Of a DNA stretch of 64,000 nucleotides, positions 22,405 to 28,675 are shown piece by piece. Each line of letters opens with the position of its first letter. Position 1 is the stretch's first letter. This DNA comes from Arthrobacter jiangjiafuii (lineage in GTDB: Bacteria > Actinomycetota > Actinomycetes > Actinomycetales > Micrococcaceae), in contig NZ_CP076022.1 in NCBI RefSeq assembly GCF_018622995.1, positions 434,001 through 498,000 of the forward strand. Reading direction: 5' to 3'. Below the pieces are notes generated by a model. The model was not told the DNA's origin. It saw only the letters and a list, made by a program, of their open reading frames with translations, and made no database searches. Made by a program: the position numbers and the translations under genes.

Positions 22405-23751
22405 ATGGCGCGAGCGAAGGACAGCGGCGGTGCCAATGCCCCGGGGAACCTGCTGGTGCTCGGCGTTGCTGCCATCCTGGCAGGTGCCGGAACCGGATTT
22501 GTCGGTGGTGCGTTCCGCTGGGTGCTGCACGAACTGGACCGGTTGCGGAGCGGTCTGTCGGGCTGGGCCCAGGACATCCCCGGGGGCATCCTTGCGCCGG
22601 TCCTCGTCTGCGCTGCTGCCGCCGCGCTCGCCGTCGCCCTCGTGCGGTTCTCGCCGCGATCGGCGGGCAGCGGGATCGGGCAGGTGGAAGCTGTCTACCG
22701 CAACCAGATGATGCCGCCGCCGCTGAGCGTGATCCCGGTGCGTTTCGCGGGCGGTTCGCTGGCCATCGGTGCCGGGCTGGTGCTGGGCCGGGAAGGGCCG
22801 ACCATCCATATGGGCTCGGCGATCGGGCTGGCGGTGGCCCGTACCGCGCGGATGGGCCGGGACGACGTGGCGGCCATGCAGATCGCCCTTTCCGGTGCGG
22901 GCCTGGCGGTGGCGTTCAACGCCCCGGTGGGCGGATCCCTGTTCGTTTTCGAGGAAGTGACCAAGTCCTTCCGCTGGCGCATGGTCGTCCCCACCCTGCT
23001 GGGCGTGGCCGTGGCCGTCGGATGCGCCCGGCTGATCATTGGCGACCAGCCGGATTTTTCCGTTTCCGCGGTCAGCAATCCACCACTGTTCCTGCTGCCC
23101 CTCTTTGCTGTCTTCGGCGCACTGCTGGGGCTGCTGGGGGCCGGCTACAACGTGGTGCTAATACGCCTGCTGGCTGTCGCGGATGGGTTGCACCGCCTGC
23201 CGGGAACAGTGCGCGGGGGTGTAATCGGTGCCGCGGTCGGTGCCGTGGTCTTTGTGGATCCCCTTGCCGTTGGCGGCGGTGACGCACTGACCCAGCTGCT
23301 GCTGGCCGGACAAGCCTTCACCGTCCCGGCGCTGCTGGCCTATCTCGCCATCCGGTTCCTGGCAGGACCGCTTTCCTACGCCGCAGCGGCTCCCGGCGGA
23401 CTGTTTGCACCGCTGCTGGCTCTGGGAGCCCTCGCCGGGGTGCTGTTTGGAGAAGCCTGTCGGTGGGTGTTTCCGCAGCTTGGTGATCAGTTCGGAACAG
23501 CGATGGCCATCGTCGGCATGTCGACCATGTTCGCGGCTGTGGTGCGGGCGCCATTCACCGGGATCGTGCTGATCATCGAGATGACGGCCATCACCACGGT
23601 AACTGTTCCGATGCTGGTGGCGGCCGGAGCGGCAGTATTGGCAGCGATGGCGGTGAGATCGGCTCCGGTCTATGATTCGCTGCGCGAACGGTCCCTCCGC
23701 ATCAACCCGGAGTGGAAGGCGGAGCCGTTCCCGCCGTCCCCGGGGACCTAA
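22405..23751 (+). CDS. CLC-family chloride channel/antiporter
   Basis: 448 residues with about ten or more hydrophobic helices. The CLC selectivity motifs are present: AGSGIGQVEAVYR (GSGIP-type; Ile-Gly replaces Ile-Pro), GREGPTIHMGS with the gating glutamate, and PGGLFAPLLALGALAG (GxFxP). CLC proteins move Cl- through the membrane, often exchanging 2 Cl- for 1 H+, and can serve acid resistance. The ATG has GGGAGG upstream. It is divergent from the unrecognised gene at 21223-22332. A proximity link to the oxalate decarboxylase in acid tolerance is possible but only inferred. Confidence 0.93.
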   Translation: MARAKDSGGANAPGNLLVLGVAAILAGAGTGFVGGAFRWVLHELDRLRSGLSGWAQDIPGGILAPVLVCAAAAALAVALVRFSPRSAGSGIGQVEAVYRNQMMPPPLSVIPVRFAGGSLAIGAGLVLGREGPTIHMGSAIGLAVARTARMGRDDVAAMQIALSGAGLAVAFNAPVGGSLFVFEEVTKSFRWRMVVPTLLGVAVAVGCARLIIGDQPDFSVSAVSNPPLFLLPLFAVFGALLGLLGAGYNVVLIRLLAVADGLHRLPGTVRGGVIGAAVGAVVFVDPLAVGGGDALTQLLLAGQAFTVPALLAYLAIRFLAGPLSYAAAAPGGLFAPLLALGALAGVLFGEACRWVFPQLGDQFGTAMAIVGMSTMFAAVVRAPFTGIVLIIEMTAITTVTVPMLVAAGAAVLAAMAVRSAPVYDSLRERSLRINPEWKAEPFPPSPGT

Positions 23752-23754
23752 GTC

Positions 23755-24204
23755 CTAGGGTTTATCCACACGCAGCCGGATCTTGACGAGTGCGGTGTAA
23801 ATGCTCGCGTGCTGCTTAAGGTACGCGGAGATGGTCTCCGCGTCCTGGTCGTCCATCAGCGGCTCGGTGCCCAGGACGAAGACCACATACCGGCGCCCGA
23901 TGGCATTGCCGGTCCAGTCGTCCGTGACAGGGTGGCGGGCCCAGATCTCATCACGGATGCAGAATTCCACCTGCTGGGCCCGCAGCGAGACATACATGAT
24001 GTTGGTGCCCAGGGGCAGGATGTCCCGGTCTTCATCGAGGCGCCGCAGCCCAAGTTCCGCGGCCGTCTGCGCCAAGCCGGTGCCGGCGTCGGACGTATAC
24101 GGATGGATGAGGGCGTAGGAAGTCGGTTCGTCAAAGGGATTGGGTGCAGTCCACATGGTCAGGCCGAAGTCTGTGCCGGGGAGGAGCCGGGAGGCAGATT
24201 CCAT
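23755..24204 (-). CDS. Small conserved-looking hypothetical protein
   Basis: 149 residues from ATG 24204, a start supported by a TACCCT box 6 nt upstream; the frame could begin as far up as 24294 but then lacks any signal. There are no membrane helices and no signal peptide. It is a mixed alpha/beta protein with WTAPNPFDEP, a central IMYVSLRAQQVEFCIRDEIW and a C-terminal VVFVLGTEPLMDDQDAE. I do not recognise the family. It converges with the CLC gene, whose stop is 3 bases away. Confidence 0.7.
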   Translation of the reverse strand: MESASRLLPGTDFGLTMWTAPNPFDEPTSYALIHPYTSDAGTGLAQTAAELGLRRLDEDRDILPLGTNIMYVSLRAQQVEFCIRDEIWARHPVTDDWTGNAIGRRYVVFVLGTEPLMDDQDAETISAYLKQHASIYTALVKIRLRVDKP

Positions 24205-24210
24205 GTCGCG

Positions 24211-24216
24211 AGGGTA
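24211..24216 (-). promoter_or_regulatory. -10 box of the gene at 23755-24204 (leaderless)
   Basis: TACCCT on the minus strand, 6 nt before ATG 24204. Confidence 0.5.
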
Positions 24217-24385
24217 GCCCACGCCGGGCGGCAAGAGAACAGCTCCCACGTTTTCACTGCCGCTGCGTGCCAAAAGGACGACGCAGGTATACACCCTTTT
24301 TGGCCCGTCCTACCGTTTAAAGGTGACCCGCCGGAGCCGCGGAGACTCCGCCAGGCGGCAGCCGCATCGAGTGAAGGATCATCTC

Positions 24386-25615
24386 ATGACGGATACCACA
24401 AGAGTCGAGCCCTCGACGGGCGCAGGAACCGACAGCGTCCAGACGGACAACCTTCCCCAGCCTTTCCGTGAGGCAGACGGGAAGGGCTGGATCGATCTGG
24501 GCCCCCGGGATATTTGGCGGGACAAGGAAAATCCCGACATGCTTGTCCCGCCGCCCCGGGACGGCGGTGTCCTTCCCAACTGTAGGTTCAGCTTTTCCGA
24601 CGCCCATCAGCGCCTGCAGCCGGGCGGATGGACGCGAGAAGTGACCAACCGGGAACTGCCCATTTCCACCGATTTGGCCGGCGTGAACATGTGTCTGCAG
24701 CCTGGCGCATATCGGGAACTGCACTGGCACAAGGAAGCGGAATGGGGCTTCATGATCACGGGCAACGCCCGGGTCACCGCCATCGACGAAAAGGGGCGGT
24801 ACTTCATCGACGATGTTGTTGCCGGTGACCTTTGGAATTTCGAGGCCGGCCTGCCGCACAGCATCCAGGGACTGGACCAGGGCTGTGAATTCCTCCTTGT
24901 CTTTAGCGACGGGGACTTTTCGGAGTACAACACCTTCCTGCTCAGCGACTGGTTCGCCCATGTTCCGCGGGATGTGCTGGCAGCCAACCTGAAAAGGGAC
25001 GTCGCAGATATTTCGTCCTTCCCGCAGGACGAGAAATACATCTTTAAGGCCGAAGTCCCCGGGCCCATCTCGGAGGTCCAGCGGCCGACACCGGAGGGGA
25101 GGGTGCCGGACATGTTCAGCTTCCACATGGAAACCGCCACCCCCATCGTTTCGGAGGCCGGAACCGTACGGATCGTGGACGAAAACGTCTTCCCGGCGGC
25201 CAAGACCATCTCCGCGGCGTTCGTCGAGATTGAACCGGGCGGCATGCGTGAGCTGCACTGGCACCCGAGCGGTTCCGAGTGGCAGTACTGGGTGCAGGGC
25301 CGCGGGAAGATGACGATTTTCGATTCCGGCGGAATTGCCCGGACCTTCAACTACCAAGCCGGCGACGTCGGTGTGGTTCCACGGGTCGCCGGACACTATG
25401 TGCAGAACATCGGCGACGAGAGAATCGTCTACCTGGAGGTCTTCAAGAACCCGCAGTACAGCGAGGTTTCGGCGAACAAGTGGCTGGCGTCCAACCCTGC
25501 CTACATCGTTGCAGACCACCTGAATGTTTCCACGGACTTCGTTGAGTCCATGCCGATGAATGAAAAGCCGTCACCAGTCATCTGGTACGACCAGTCGAAG
25601 GTCCGGAAGGGCTGA
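24386..25615 (+). CDS. oxdC: Oxalate decarboxylase (bicupin, Mn-dependent)
   Basis: 409 residues with two cupin domains. Metal ligands by spacing to Bacillus OxdC: domain 1 His113, His115, Glu119, His158; domain 2 His291, His293, Glu298, His337. The arginines before each site (Arg110, Arg288) and Glu351 are kept. The lid loop reads SEYNT at 179-183, with the Glu (180) that favours decarboxylase over oxidase chemistry. It would convert oxalate to formate and CO2, consuming a proton. No signal peptide, so cytoplasmic. ATG 24386 has GAAGGA upstream. A flavoprotein gene follows 3 nt later and is probably co-transcribed. Confidence 0.95.
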   Translation: MTDTTRVEPSTGAGTDSVQTDNLPQPFREADGKGWIDLGPRDIWRDKENPDMLVPPPRDGGVLPNCRFSFSDAHQRLQPGGWTREVTNRELPISTDLAGVNMCLQPGAYRELHWHKEAEWGFMITGNARVTAIDEKGRYFIDDVVAGDLWNFEAGLPHSIQGLDQGCEFLLVFSDGDFSEYNTFLLSDWFAHVPRDVLAANLKRDVADISSFPQDEKYIFKAEVPGPISEVQRPTPEGRVPDMFSFHMETATPIVSEAGTVRIVDENVFPAAKTISAAFVEIEPGGMRELHWHPSGSEWQYWVQGRGKMTIFDSGGIARTFNYQAGDVGVVPRVAGHYVQNIGDERIVYLEVFKNPQYSEVSANKWLASNPAYIVADHLNVSTDFVESMPMNEKPSPVIWYDQSKVRKG

Positions 25616-25618
25616 CCG

Positions 25619-26581
25619 GTGGCCCGTATCCTGGTTGTCTCTTCCAGCCTGTTCGGTGCCAATGCGGACCTCGCCGCACTGATCCGGCCCGTGCTTGCCG
25701 GCCTCGGGGCGGAATACCGGTTGCGGGGAGTGAAGCAGCTGGTTCTGGCAGGCCAGATGGCACCCGGGGCGAGGGCCATCATGGCCAGGGGTGACGATCT
25801 GGCCTGGGCGGACGGCTTCATCTTCAGTTCACCGGCACATACCGGGCTGTTGTCTGCCGCAATGAAAGCCTTCATTGACGAGCATCACGATGCCGCCGAG
25901 ACCGGGGCTTTCATTGACAAGACCTTCACGGCGATGGCTACCGGCGCCTATCTGCACGCAGGCCAGGAGCATGTGGTGGCTGAGCTGAATGCCGTGGCGG
26001 CGATATGGGGCTGCGTGCTCGTACCGCCCTCCGGCGCCGACGCCGTCATCAACCACCTCAACGGGAACCCGTGGGGGCTCAGCTTTACGCTGCACCACGG
26101 CAGGGTGGACAACCGCGCGGCGGCCGAACAGGCGGTGCGCTCGCATCTGACCCGGTTCGTGGCCGTCACCGATGCCCTGGCTGCCACGCGCAGAGCCCAT
26201 CCGCCGGGCAGGGAACCCGCCACATCCGGCGGCAAAAACCGAAAGGAGAGGAAGGCCGTGCCCAGTGCAACCCATCCGCTGCGGGCCACCGATGTCTTCG
26301 TCGGTCCGCATGAGACCCCGCGGACGCCATCGAGGTCCTCCGGCTCAGCAAGGTCCTCAGGCTCATCCGGCCCATCCAGCCCGCCGGGCGGGCATTCGCC
26401 CACCAATCCCTTGCGGGCCGCCGACGTCTTCCGGGGTCCGCAGGATTCCGGGGCCGGCTCCGGTGTATCCGGCGGCGGCAGCGGGGCAGGCGGTGGCTCC
26501 AGCCCAGGCTCGGGCCATTCGCCGACCAATCCACTGCGGGCAACAGATGTGTTCCGGGGCCCGTACCAGAGCCGGCACTAA
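25619..26581 (+). CDS. Flavodoxin-fold NAD(P)H reductase with a C-terminal triple-repeat tail
   Basis: 320 residues from GTG 25619. Residues 1-195 resemble the WrbA/NADPH-FMN reductase flavodoxin fold: RILVVSSSLFGANADLAALI, and DGFIFSSPAHTGLLSAAMKA followed by FIDE as flavin-binding loops. Residues 196-218 are basic. Residues 219-320 are disordered Ser/Gly/Pro sequence with three copies of a 12-14-residue motif, (N/H)PLRA(T/A)DVF(R/V)GP, at 219, 263 and 304. A strong ribosome binding site sits before an in-frame GTG at 26258, so the tail may also be made alone as a 107-residue protein. It follows oxdC by 3 nt. The reductase call is good; the tail's role is unknown. Confidence 0.8.
   Translation: MARILVVSSSLFGANADLAALIRPVLAGLGAEYRLRGVKQLVLAGQMAPGARAIMARGDDLAWADGFIFSSPAHTGLLSAAMKAFIDEHHDAAETGAFIDKTFTAMATGAYLHAGQEHVVAELNAVAAIWGCVLVPPSGADAVINHLNGNPWGLSFTLHHGRVDNRAAAEQAVRSHLTRFVAVTDALAATRRAHPPGREPATSGGKNRKERKAVPSATHPLRATDVFVGPHETPRTPSRSSGSARSSGSSGPSSPPGGHSPTNPLRAADVFRGPQDSGAGSGVSGGGSGAGGGSSPGSGHSPTNPLRATDVFRGPYQSRH
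26242..26260 (+). promoter_or_regulatory. Strong internal ribosome binding site before an in-frame GTG
   Basis: AAAGGAG (26242-26248) is a perfect match to the 16S 3' end, 9 nt before GTG 26258. Initiation there would give a separate 107-residue protein (residues 214-320 of the flavoprotein frame) that consists only of the triple-repeat tail. Confidence 0.6.
26273..26569 (+). repeat. Three-copy peptide repeat (N/H)PLRA(T/A)DVF(R/V)GP
   Basis: Copies at 26273-26314, 26405-26446 and 26528-26569, spaced by 44 and 41 codons of Ser/Gly/Pro linker. Copies 2 and 3 share a longer unit, GHSPTNPLRA(A/T)DVFRGP. Within those 17 codons there are eight synonymous codon differences and only one amino-acid change, so the repeat is kept at the protein level rather than being a recent DNA duplication. 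Confidence 0.85.
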
Positions 26582-26594
26582 GGTCCGGCCGCGG

Positions 26595-26622
26595 GCGGAG
26601 GAGCATAGCGTTGCTCCTCCGC
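26595..26622. repeat. Perfect hairpin after the flavoprotein gene
   Basis: GCGGAGGAGCA (26595-26605) and TGCTCCTCCGC (26612-26622) with a 6-nt loop. No T tract follows, so it may be a Rho-assisted or mRNA-stabilising stem at the end of the oxdC operon. Confidence 0.6.
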
Positions 26623-26662
26623 GCGTGGCCGTGCCATCAGTCCACTGGAAGGAAGCGAGCCC

Positions 26663-27424
26663 ATGAGTGCTCCCGCCACGCCTCCATCGGATGTGCAGTA
26701 CGTTCACAAACATCCGGAAGTCATCCGTTTCCCGTTGATGGAACAGCCGTTCATCGGCTTCCTCCTGGCATTCGTCGCCGGTCTGCTCAACGCCTGGACC
26801 CTTGCCCACGCCGATACCTTCGCCACCGTCCAGTCCGGCAACGTGGTGTCCAGCGGCTTTTACCTGGTGGACGGTGACTGGGCTAAATTCACGCCCGCCA
26901 TCGTGTCGGTGCTGTGCTTTGGGGTGGGCTCGGCGCTGTCCGGGGTGCTAATGACTGCCTTCCTGCGCAGCGGCAGATCATTCACGCCAGGAATGCTGTT
27001 CGCGTTGTTCGCACTGCTGGTCATCGGCACCCTGCTTGCGGCGCTAACCGACATGGACCCGCGCTACATCGCCTTCGGGGTGAGCTTTGTTGCGGGGGGC
27101 CTTGGCAATTCCTTCCACAAGAACCACGGCATGCTCTACGGGGCAGTGGCCGTGACGTTCGTAGTGCAGATGGCGTTCAATTTCCTGATGCAGTCCGCCT
27201 TCTCCAAAAAGGGAGTCAACGGCGAACCGAACATCTACTGGTCAGGGGTCTTTTTCCTCGTGCTGCTGGGGTTCGCCGGGGGAGGAGCCATCGGCTTCCT
27301 GGCGGACACCTGGTTCAACGGGGCATCCATCGCCTTCGCCGCGCTGCTTTGCGCCATCCTGGGGATTATGTCGCTCCGCCAGCCCCGCGACCCCGATCCC
27401 ACCCCCGGCGGGCGCTTCGTCTAG
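26663..27424 (+). CDS. DUF1275 (YoaK family) membrane protein
   Basis: 253 residues with GGAAGG before the ATG. Six or seven hydrophobic segments span about 30-240. The family signature of a transmembrane start with an Asp/Asn-containing segment and an S/TGN turn is present: GFLLAFVAGLLNAWTL, then FATVQSGNVVSSGFYL, and later GGLGNSFHKNHG. The function of the family is unknown. It is preceded by the hairpin at 26595 and follows the oxalate/flavoprotein pair in the same direction. Confidence 0.9.
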   Translation: MSAPATPPSDVQYVHKHPEVIRFPLMEQPFIGFLLAFVAGLLNAWTLAHADTFATVQSGNVVSSGFYLVDGDWAKFTPAIVSVLCFGVGSALSGVLMTAFLRSGRSFTPGMLFALFALLVIGTLLAALTDMDPRYIAFGVSFVAGGLGNSFHKNHGMLYGAVAVTFVVQMAFNFLMQSAFSKKGVNGEPNIYWSGVFFLVLLGFAGGGAIGFLADTWFNGASIAFAALLCAILGIMSLRQPRDPDPTPGGRFV

Positions 27425-27439
27425 GGAGCAGGCGCCCAC

Positions 27440-27445
27440 TACGCT
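27440..27445 (+). promoter_or_regulatory. -10 box of the PLP enzyme gene (leaderless)
   Basis: TACGCT, 6 nt before ATG 27452. Confidence 0.55.
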
Positions 27446-27451
27446 GTAGCC

Positions 27452-28675
27452 ATGAGTCCCGCGCCTTCAGAGAGCCCAGTACCGCACGGTCATTCCAGCG
27501 GGAAGCTGTCCCCGGACACGGTGGTGGTATCCGCCGGCCGTCCGCCCCGTGAGCCGGACGCCCCGGTCAACCCGCCGATAGTGCTTTCCTCCACCTTCCA
27601 CGGCACCGGCACGCCTGCGCCGGGCGAGCGCGTGTACGGCCGCTACTCCAACCCCACCTGGGACCCGTTCGAGGCTGCGCTCGCCGAACTCGAAGGGGCT
27701 GCCCTTCCGGCGTTGGTCTACTCCTCAGGTCTGGCAGCTGTGGCGGCGGCGCTCTCTCTGGTTCCCGCCGGCGGAATCCTGGTGATGCCCCGGCACAGCT
27801 ATCAGGGCTCACTGCTTCTGGCCGCCGGGGAGGCAGCCAACGGGCGGTTCACCATCCGGACCGTGGACATCGCCAATACCGCCGAGGTCCTCGCCGCCCT
27901 GCACGGAACGGCCTCCGGAACAGATTCCTCAACAGGCGACGCCGCAGCGGCTGCCGCCCCGGCGGACATGCTGTGGATTGAAAGCCCAACCAACCCCATG
28001 CTCGAAGTGGCAGAGATCGAGGTCCTGGCCGCCGCAGCCCGCGACGTCGGGGCGCTGGTTGTCGCGGACAACACCTTCTCCACGCCGCTGGTGACGCGGC
28101 CCTTGGAACTGGGAGCCGACGTCGTGCTCCATTCCGTGACCAAGTACCTTGCCGGGCACTCGGATGTGGTGCTTGGTGCGCTGGCCACCTCGGACGGGGA
28201 GCTGCACGCACGCCTGCACCAGTACCGCTCGCTGCACGGCGCTGTGGGCGGCCCCTTCGAGGTGTGGCTGGCCCTGCGCGGCCTGCGGACCCTGGCCCTG
28301 CGGATCGAGCGCTCGCAGGCAAGCGCCGGTACCCTGGCGCAGCGGCTGCTGGCCCATCCGCAGGTTGAAGCGGTCCGCTATCCGGGCCTGCCCGACGACG
28401 CCGGCCATGAGCGGGCGGCCAAGCAGATGGACGGGTTCGGGTCGATTCTCTGCATTGAAGTGGCCGGCGGAGCCGCGGCAGCGCAGGCCGTGGCGGAAAA
28501 GGTGCGACTCTGGCTGCCGGCCACGTCGCTGGGTGGAGTGGAATCGCTGATCGAGCGCCGCCGGCGCCAGCCGGGGGAGCCGCTGACCGTGCCGGAGAAC
28601 CTGCTGCGGCTTTCCGTCGGGATTGAAAATGTCGAAGACCTCTGGGCCGACCTGTCCCAGGCACTGGCGCGGTAG
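27452..28675 (+). CDS. Cys/Met-metabolism PLP-dependent enzyme (cystathionine gamma-synthase/lyase type)
   Basis: 407 residues. Typical family landmarks: PPIVLSSTFH near residue 48, RYSNPTWDPFEAALAELEGA, YSSGLAAVAA, ESPTNPMLEV, VADNTFSTP and the PLP-binding Lys231 in HSVTKYLAGHSD. The C-terminus with SLGGVESLIERR and LRLSVGIENVEDL matches trans-sulfuration enzymes. The exact substrate (synthase, lyase or sulfhydrylase) cannot be fixed from the sequence. The start is supported by TACGCT 6 nt upstream. The TAG stop lies inside the -10 box of the next gene. Confidence 0.93.
   Translation: MSPAPSESPVPHGHSSGKLSPDTVVVSAGRPPREPDAPVNPPIVLSSTFHGTGTPAPGERVYGRYSNPTWDPFEAALAELEGAALPALVYSSGLAAVAAALSLVPAGGILVMPRHSYQGSLLLAAGEAANGRFTIRTVDIANTAEVLAALHGTASGTDSSTGDAAAAAAPADMLWIESPTNPMLEVAEIEVLAAAARDVGALVVADNTFSTPLVTRPLELGADVVLHSVTKYLAGHSDVVLGALATSDGELHARLHQYRSLHGAVGGPFEVWLALRGLRTLALRIERSQASAGTLAQRLLAHPQVEAVRYPGLPDDAGHERAAKQMDGFGSILCIEVAGGAAAAQAVAEKVRLWLPATSLGGVESLIERRRRQPGEPLTVPENLLRLSVGIENVEDLWADLSQALAR

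Follow-up and report, generated by a model that had tools for sequence, protein, structure and literature searches.

A gene of Arthrobacter jiangjiafuii encodes a probable flavoprotein whose C-terminal tail, rich in Ser, Gly and Pro, carries three copies of the motif PLRA[TA]DVF.GP. It was found in a stretch of 64,000 nucleotides (contig NZ_CP076022.1 of assembly GCF_018622995.1, forward-strand positions 434,001 to 498,000), referred to here as the window, in whose numbering all positions are given. An earlier note on this DNA had drawn attention to the tail, and its observation was right: selection on the motif peptide is well supported, an internal translation start is suggestive and a role of the tail in docking is plausible. 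The gene and its parts are as follows.

25619..26581, forward strand: flavoprotein-tail gene, GTG start, 320 amino acids in a single open frame.
25619..26194, forward strand: FMN_red/WrbA-like flavodoxin domain, about residues 1-192, delimited from PF03358, PDB entry 1ydg and the alignment of relatives.
26195..26578, forward strand: tail rich in Ser, Gly and Pro, about 127 residues, with three motif copies; probably disordered, judging by composition.
26276..26308, forward strand: motif copy 1, PLRATDVFVGP, residues 220-230, read from the sequence.
26390..26440, forward strand: motif copy 2, GHSPTNPLRAADVFRGP, with the core PLRA[TA]DVF.GP at residues 264-274 (26408-26440).
26513..26563, forward strand: motif copy 3, GHSPTNPLRATDVFRGP, with the same core at residues 305-315 (26531-26563).

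All three copies described in the earlier note are present, and copies 2 and 3 have GHSPTNPLRA[A/T]DVFRGP in common, as had been claimed a stretch of 17 residues in which one residue is replaced and eight codons differ silently. The best self-match of 17 residues within the tail was 16/17, against a maximum of 9 over 500 shuffles. Hydrophobic residues are partitioned between motifs and linkers in a sticker-and-spacer layout: the motif stretches of 16, 18 and 18 residues contain 4, 3 and 4 of them (11/52), whereas the two linkers between the copies contain one in 49 residues, 34 of which are Ser or Gly.

The pattern of codon changes points to conservation of the peptide. When the 18 codons of copies 2 and 3 were compared by the Nei-Gojobori method, 9 silent differences at 15.3 silent sites were counted against 3 replacements at 38.7 replacement sites (pS 0.59, pN 0.08, Fisher p 1.4e-4), and copies 1 and 3 gave 6 silent and 3 replacement differences (p 0.014). 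Silent change thus lies far above replacement change in copies 2 and 3, so that the peptide has been conserved and the DNA has not. Because the repeat boundaries had been drawn where the amino acids are alike, a choice that biases replacement counts downwards, a neutral simulation was added; at site differences of 0.2, 0.3, 0.4, 0.5 and 0.59, at least 16 of 17 identical residues were retained in 64, 1, 0, 0 and 0 of 20,000 runs, respectively. The claim that the peptide is under selection is therefore well supported within this gene, on data from the window. So much silent divergence would ordinarily point to a duplication of long ago, but scrambling of codons between the repeats could mimic age.

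The tail also contains a candidate internal translation start.

26242..26248, forward strand: AAAGGAG, part of GAAAGGAG, candidate internal ribosome-binding site, duplex energy -12.9, rank 2/847.
26258..26581, forward strand: candidate open reading frame (ORF) for a stand-alone tail, GTG start at residue 214, 107 amino acids.

The spacing of 9 nucleotides between the end of GAAAGGAG and the GTG, and the 107 residues that follow, had been given exactly. The GTG had also been put at the very start of the tail, which holds in part, as it lies within the tail, six codons ahead of the first motif, but some 20 residues past the end of the domain at about residue 192. Duplex energies were computed against the anti-Shine-Dalgarno sequence, and the ORF sets (43 for duplex energy, 37 for match length) were chosen by script rather than from annotation, with mostly longest-ORF starts. 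A duplex energy as low as that of the GAAAGGAG site or lower was found at 2 of 847 internal in-frame starts in the 43 window ORFs, the site itself counted, and at none of the 43 ORF starts. Matches of at least 6 nucleotides occur at 13/796 internal starts and 4/37 gene starts; among the 796, two reach 8 nucleotides, namely the tail site, which includes GGAG, and AGGTGATC, which does not. When the same residues were recoded, the full strength was recovered in 305 of 20,000 resamplings with the codon usage of the gene itself and in 101 of 20,000 with that of the window; the Lys-Glu dipeptide gives AAGGAG in 6211 of 20,000 own-gene resamplings. By sequence, the internal ribosome-binding site is exceptional. 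The same mode of expression as proposed here is represented by N-terminal proteoforms of bacteria that begin at internal starts in frame; those were mapped by ribosome profiling (PMC11005335), whereas the present start is known from sequence alone. The stand-alone protein of 107 residues put forward in the earlier note accordingly has an unusually good site by the statistics of the window and stays a candidate as regards expression; we put a real tail-only product from GTG 26258 at about one in three.

The N-terminal part is by sequence a WrbA-like oxidoreductase and probably binds FMN. PF03358 (FMN_red) matched residues 3-137 at 43.7 bits, above the Pfam cut-off of 24, and the nearest solved structures upon sequence search were WrbA flavoproteins (best PDB match 1ydg, E 4.6e-18). 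WrbA of type IV (TIGR01755, NAD(P)H:quinone oxidoreductase) belongs to the same FMN_red/flavodoxin-like family, from which the present protein differs by its low score (33.1 bits, below the equivalog cut-off of 132.5) and by a tail that is unmatched in the loci of 25 relatives. Alignment of the flavin domain is over by about residue 192 in most relatives, some plasmid relatives continuing weakly to 208-228, and the protein ends 0-41 residues past the aligned part in 24 of the 25 loci and 304 residues past it in one (L038). An AlphaFold2 model of the whole protein from one sequence, with the tail as coil, was of too low quality for use (mean pLDDT 39, pTM 0.24).

Upon database search, the tail is an orphan, found in one genome at the sensitivity of the searches, which used the pattern PLRA.D[VI]F.GP for motif scans and may leave out very near genomes. 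Within the own genome, all three motif matches at E<=10 fall inside this ORF, and the motif's occurrence on no other protein there argues against a tag common to several enzymes. The tail was found in none of 294 other family genomes, nor in GTDB contigs, plasmids, phages or viral contigs, and the tail query was unmatched in the 25 loci of flavoprotein relatives; because no relative with the tail was found, cross-species conservation, the customary form of proof, is missing. A whole-protein search by exact 8-residue patterns, which detects close relatives only, found none in 302 and 35 candidate stretches. Whole-protein matches were obtained in 5/59 relatives and 7/295 family genomes (own genome included in both), the other matches covering the flavin domain at 27-33% identity, some of them short or broken by stops, or a low-complexity part with internal stops. 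The flavin domain was matched at E 1e-12 in 33/197 class genomes, own included, the others being at most 39% identical among the matches listed. The whole protein also matched 95 plasmid records, but no match covered 80% of its length or reached 60% identity.

No Pfam family matched the tail, even at E<=10, and no PDB entry matched the motif peptide. Searches of Pfam, NCBIfam, PHROGs, PDB and the literature are consistent with the statement that the motif belongs to no described family, apart from one weak PHROG match: copy 3 (26513-26578) matched phrog_12097 at E 0.0067 with the tail as query, 0.16 with copy 3 alone and 0.1 with the whole protein, and copies 1 and 2 did not match it; the literature searched contained no mention of phrog_12097.

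Several candidate matches were rejected. The sole other tail match among 295 family genomes (G022, E 0.048) is a different frame of a protein-kinase gene. Five motif matches in GTDB contigs have one copy each in frames of 48 to 409 residues, none of them frame-terminal and none in a repeated tail; the pattern used in that scan matched no viral contig. Pattern searches gave ten viral loci, in which the match falls in a large protein (L062, L063, L069), in another protein (L064-L066), in short frames (L067, L070) or in an antisense frame within a 1302-residue gene (L071). The remaining viral contig, L068, has at 1383-1577 on the reverse strand a frame of 64 residues in which NPLRSPDVFSGPY precedes a membrane-type segment. 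This sequence resembles motif copy 3, perhaps by chance; the frame's best phage match has E 4 and its only PHROG match E 0.21, and it is kept as a lead.

We tentatively read the C-terminal extension as a multivalent docking tail on a WrbA-like flavoprotein, possibly also produced alone, and would give this a little less than an even chance. Three sticker motifs of 12-17 residues each would be carried on flexible Ser/Gly/Pro spacers. Flavoproteins of the WrbA-like fold are usually dimers or tetramers, so that 6 to 12 motifs would be displayed per particle, and many weak motif contacts would together tether the enzyme to a partner or draw it into clusters. As partner, the likeliest candidate would be the oxalate decarboxylase encoded by oxdC, 3 nucleotides upstream; oxalate decarboxylase is a multi-subunit enzyme. 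A tail-only form from GTG 26258 would compete for the same sites or cross-link them. The further step is a two-form scaffold for oxalate breakdown, in which the flavoprotein with its stickers and a stickers-only chain would jointly collect oxalate decarboxylase in clusters or condensates, and in which a design of the CcmM M58/M35 type would have arisen independently, with peptide stickers instead of folded repeats; this is speculative and improbable.

The likeness to CcmM (M58/M35), the scaffold of beta-carboxysomes, appears to be one of design only, without homology, in that three repeats joined by linkers, probably flexible given their composition, follow an N-terminal domain. In CcmM each repeat folds into a module homologous to the Rubisco small subunit, whereas the repeats of the tail are peptides of 12-17 residues and, having no Pfam match at E<=10, not homologues of that subunit; docking partner and internal start are in our case candidates from sequence. 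CsoS2 is a disordered chain with short motifs, a dedicated scaffold without an enzyme domain. Both it and the tail are repeat-bearing, but its motif is unrelated and the flavoprotein has an enzyme domain. In CsoS2, which is the linker of alpha-carboxysomes, multivalent repeats bind an enzyme (PMC10902431).

If the tail docks or clusters the enzyme, it would represent a simple, compact kind of scaffold that belongs to neither carboxysomes nor encapsulins, and its sticker peptide would be small enough for transfer to other proteins; should the internal start be genuine, client and cross-linker would both come from a single gene. Even without oxalate decarboxylase as the partner, a peptide that has stayed nearly the same while its codons changed so much, in a gene of a single sampled genome, suggests a binding motif undescribed in the literature searched.

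Several results weigh against a docking tail with a second, tail-only form. Copies 1 and 2 differ by 4 silent and 4 replacement changes, a silent excess that is not significant (p 0.21). The lowest duplex energy among the 847 internal starts belongs to an in-frame ATG at 25112 inside oxdC (-15.4), which beats the tail site and is presumably of chance origin; strong internal sites can thus appear where no role for them is evident. The predicted local fold pairs 3/7 AAAGGAG bases and 2/3 GTG bases. The tail occurs in no other genome searched, and the search for the motif beyond this genome, which the earlier note had set as a test, likewise found it nowhere else at the available sensitivity, an outcome that counts against the proposal. 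The layout fits multivalent docking as had been suggested, but no receptor or partner for the tail was identified, and the proposed one is a candidate only. As for the link to oxdC, the gene does adjoin upstream here, but the flavoprotein is near none of the eight other oxdC loci compared (4 other class genomes and 4 of the 80 plasmid records that matched oxdC), nor is oxdC near any of the 25 loci of flavoprotein relatives within 1.5 kb flanks or any of 6 with wider flanks.

The tail could instead lack specific binding and be a solubility or linker extension grown by internal duplication, which we consider somewhat unlikely. Disordered tails are often dispensable, the tail is confined to one genome and the stretch contains genes missing from congeners; however, for silent sites to diverge while the peptide stays constant, the peptide must be under selection. 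Codon scrambling against repeat recombination could make the duplication seem older than it is, but even then the peptide would have to be of some importance. It is less likely that the gene is a fusion remnant, in which the stop of the flavoprotein was lost ahead of a short gene that had a ribosome-binding site of its own, so that the tail may act alone and the flavin domain is incidental. A strong internal site some 20 residues beyond the domain homology and a tail unmatched in relatives, nearly all of which end soon after the aligned part, would fit such an origin, but the linker is not non-coding-like (285 of 2017 windows of 21 codons are equally or more unusual in codon usage) and no stand-alone tail gene was found in the genomes, GTDB contigs, plasmids and phages searched. 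Codon usage is somewhat unusual over the whole gene (z -2.84 for the domain, -2.08 for the tail), and since the domain is as atypical as the tail, one origin fits both; the codon-usage test thus gave no support for fusion with a formerly separate gene.

Two further functions of the tail are considerably less probable. Cargo loading had been proposed in the earlier note, and a tag for a protein shell, either encapsulin or microcompartment, would have a precedent in the cysteine desulfurase that enters the SrpI encapsulin through a disordered domain with two short conserved motifs (PMC8049743); that extension is N-terminal and its motifs are different. The family-1 encapsulin profile (PF04454) was unmatched in the genome, the control being matched in 3/14 genomes, and because no family-1 shell gene was detected, loading of this kind is weakened and unlikely; a cargo tag of any type is very improbable. 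Family 2 (PF19307) was also unmatched, but this result carries no weight because the control matched no genome either. Least of all do we expect a multi-core peptide precursor, with repeats that are excised and modified and a flavin domain that serves as modifying enzyme or carrier. Repeats separated by linkers and a conserved peptide are what such a precursor would have, but no peptidase or peptide-modifying enzyme was detected among the Pfam-scanned neighbours, of which three real-looking ones had no match, and FMN_red is not known as a flavoprotein family for precursor-peptide modification.

The neighbouring genes bear on the proposed partner.

24386..25615, forward strand: oxdC, oxalate decarboxylase family bicupin (TIGR03404), 409 amino acids from ATG 24386, a start chosen in the analysis.
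26663..27424, forward strand: gene for a DUF1275 protein, downstream neighbour (PF06912, 73.3 bits, cut-off 25.4).
22405-23751: ClC channel gene.
23755-24294, reverse strand: ORF of 179 residues beside the ClC gene, without a Pfam match.

The oxdC product scored 531.4 bits against TIGR03404 (cut-off 254.2), and its nearest relative found in the class search is 55% identical. Two sets of His/His/Glu/His columns, which we take to be metal ligands, are invariant across 9 sequences. The oxdC stop, TGA at 25613-25615, lies 3 nucleotides ahead of the flavoprotein start at 25619, a spacing that suggests coupled translation. A BLASTP comparison of the tail with OxdC gave nothing notable (best E 0.36), and a scan for promoters and terminators from 24200 to 27500 turned up nothing promoter-like, with terminator-like sites no more frequent than expected by chance. 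The two genes also share one frame (25613-25621) with only TGA CCG between them, so that read-through of the stop would fuse both.

At E 1e-60, oxdC and the ClC channel gene were each found in 1/29 genomes of the genus, namely the own one, and on these counts and the unusual codon usage the stretch looks acquired, or retained by this species only. A strong oxdC match was present in 5/296 class genomes, own included. A DUF1275 gene is near oxdC in 2 of the 4 other class genomes (L051 6315-8305; L050 6614-12009), at about 0.3 kb and divergent in one and at 3.7 kb in the other, and in none of the 4 plasmid loci. As DUF1275 is near other oxdC genes and the flavoprotein is not, oxdC and DUF1275 may form an older association, with the flavoprotein a newcomer between them. 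A DUF1275 gene is likewise part of the oxalate-gene region uctB-oxc-uctC-duf1275 of Acetobacter aceti (PMC3720670). That the DUF1275 protein is an oxalate or formate transporter is a guess. Farther upstream, 22405-24294, with the ClC gene and the 179-residue ORF, is perhaps a species-specific stretch.
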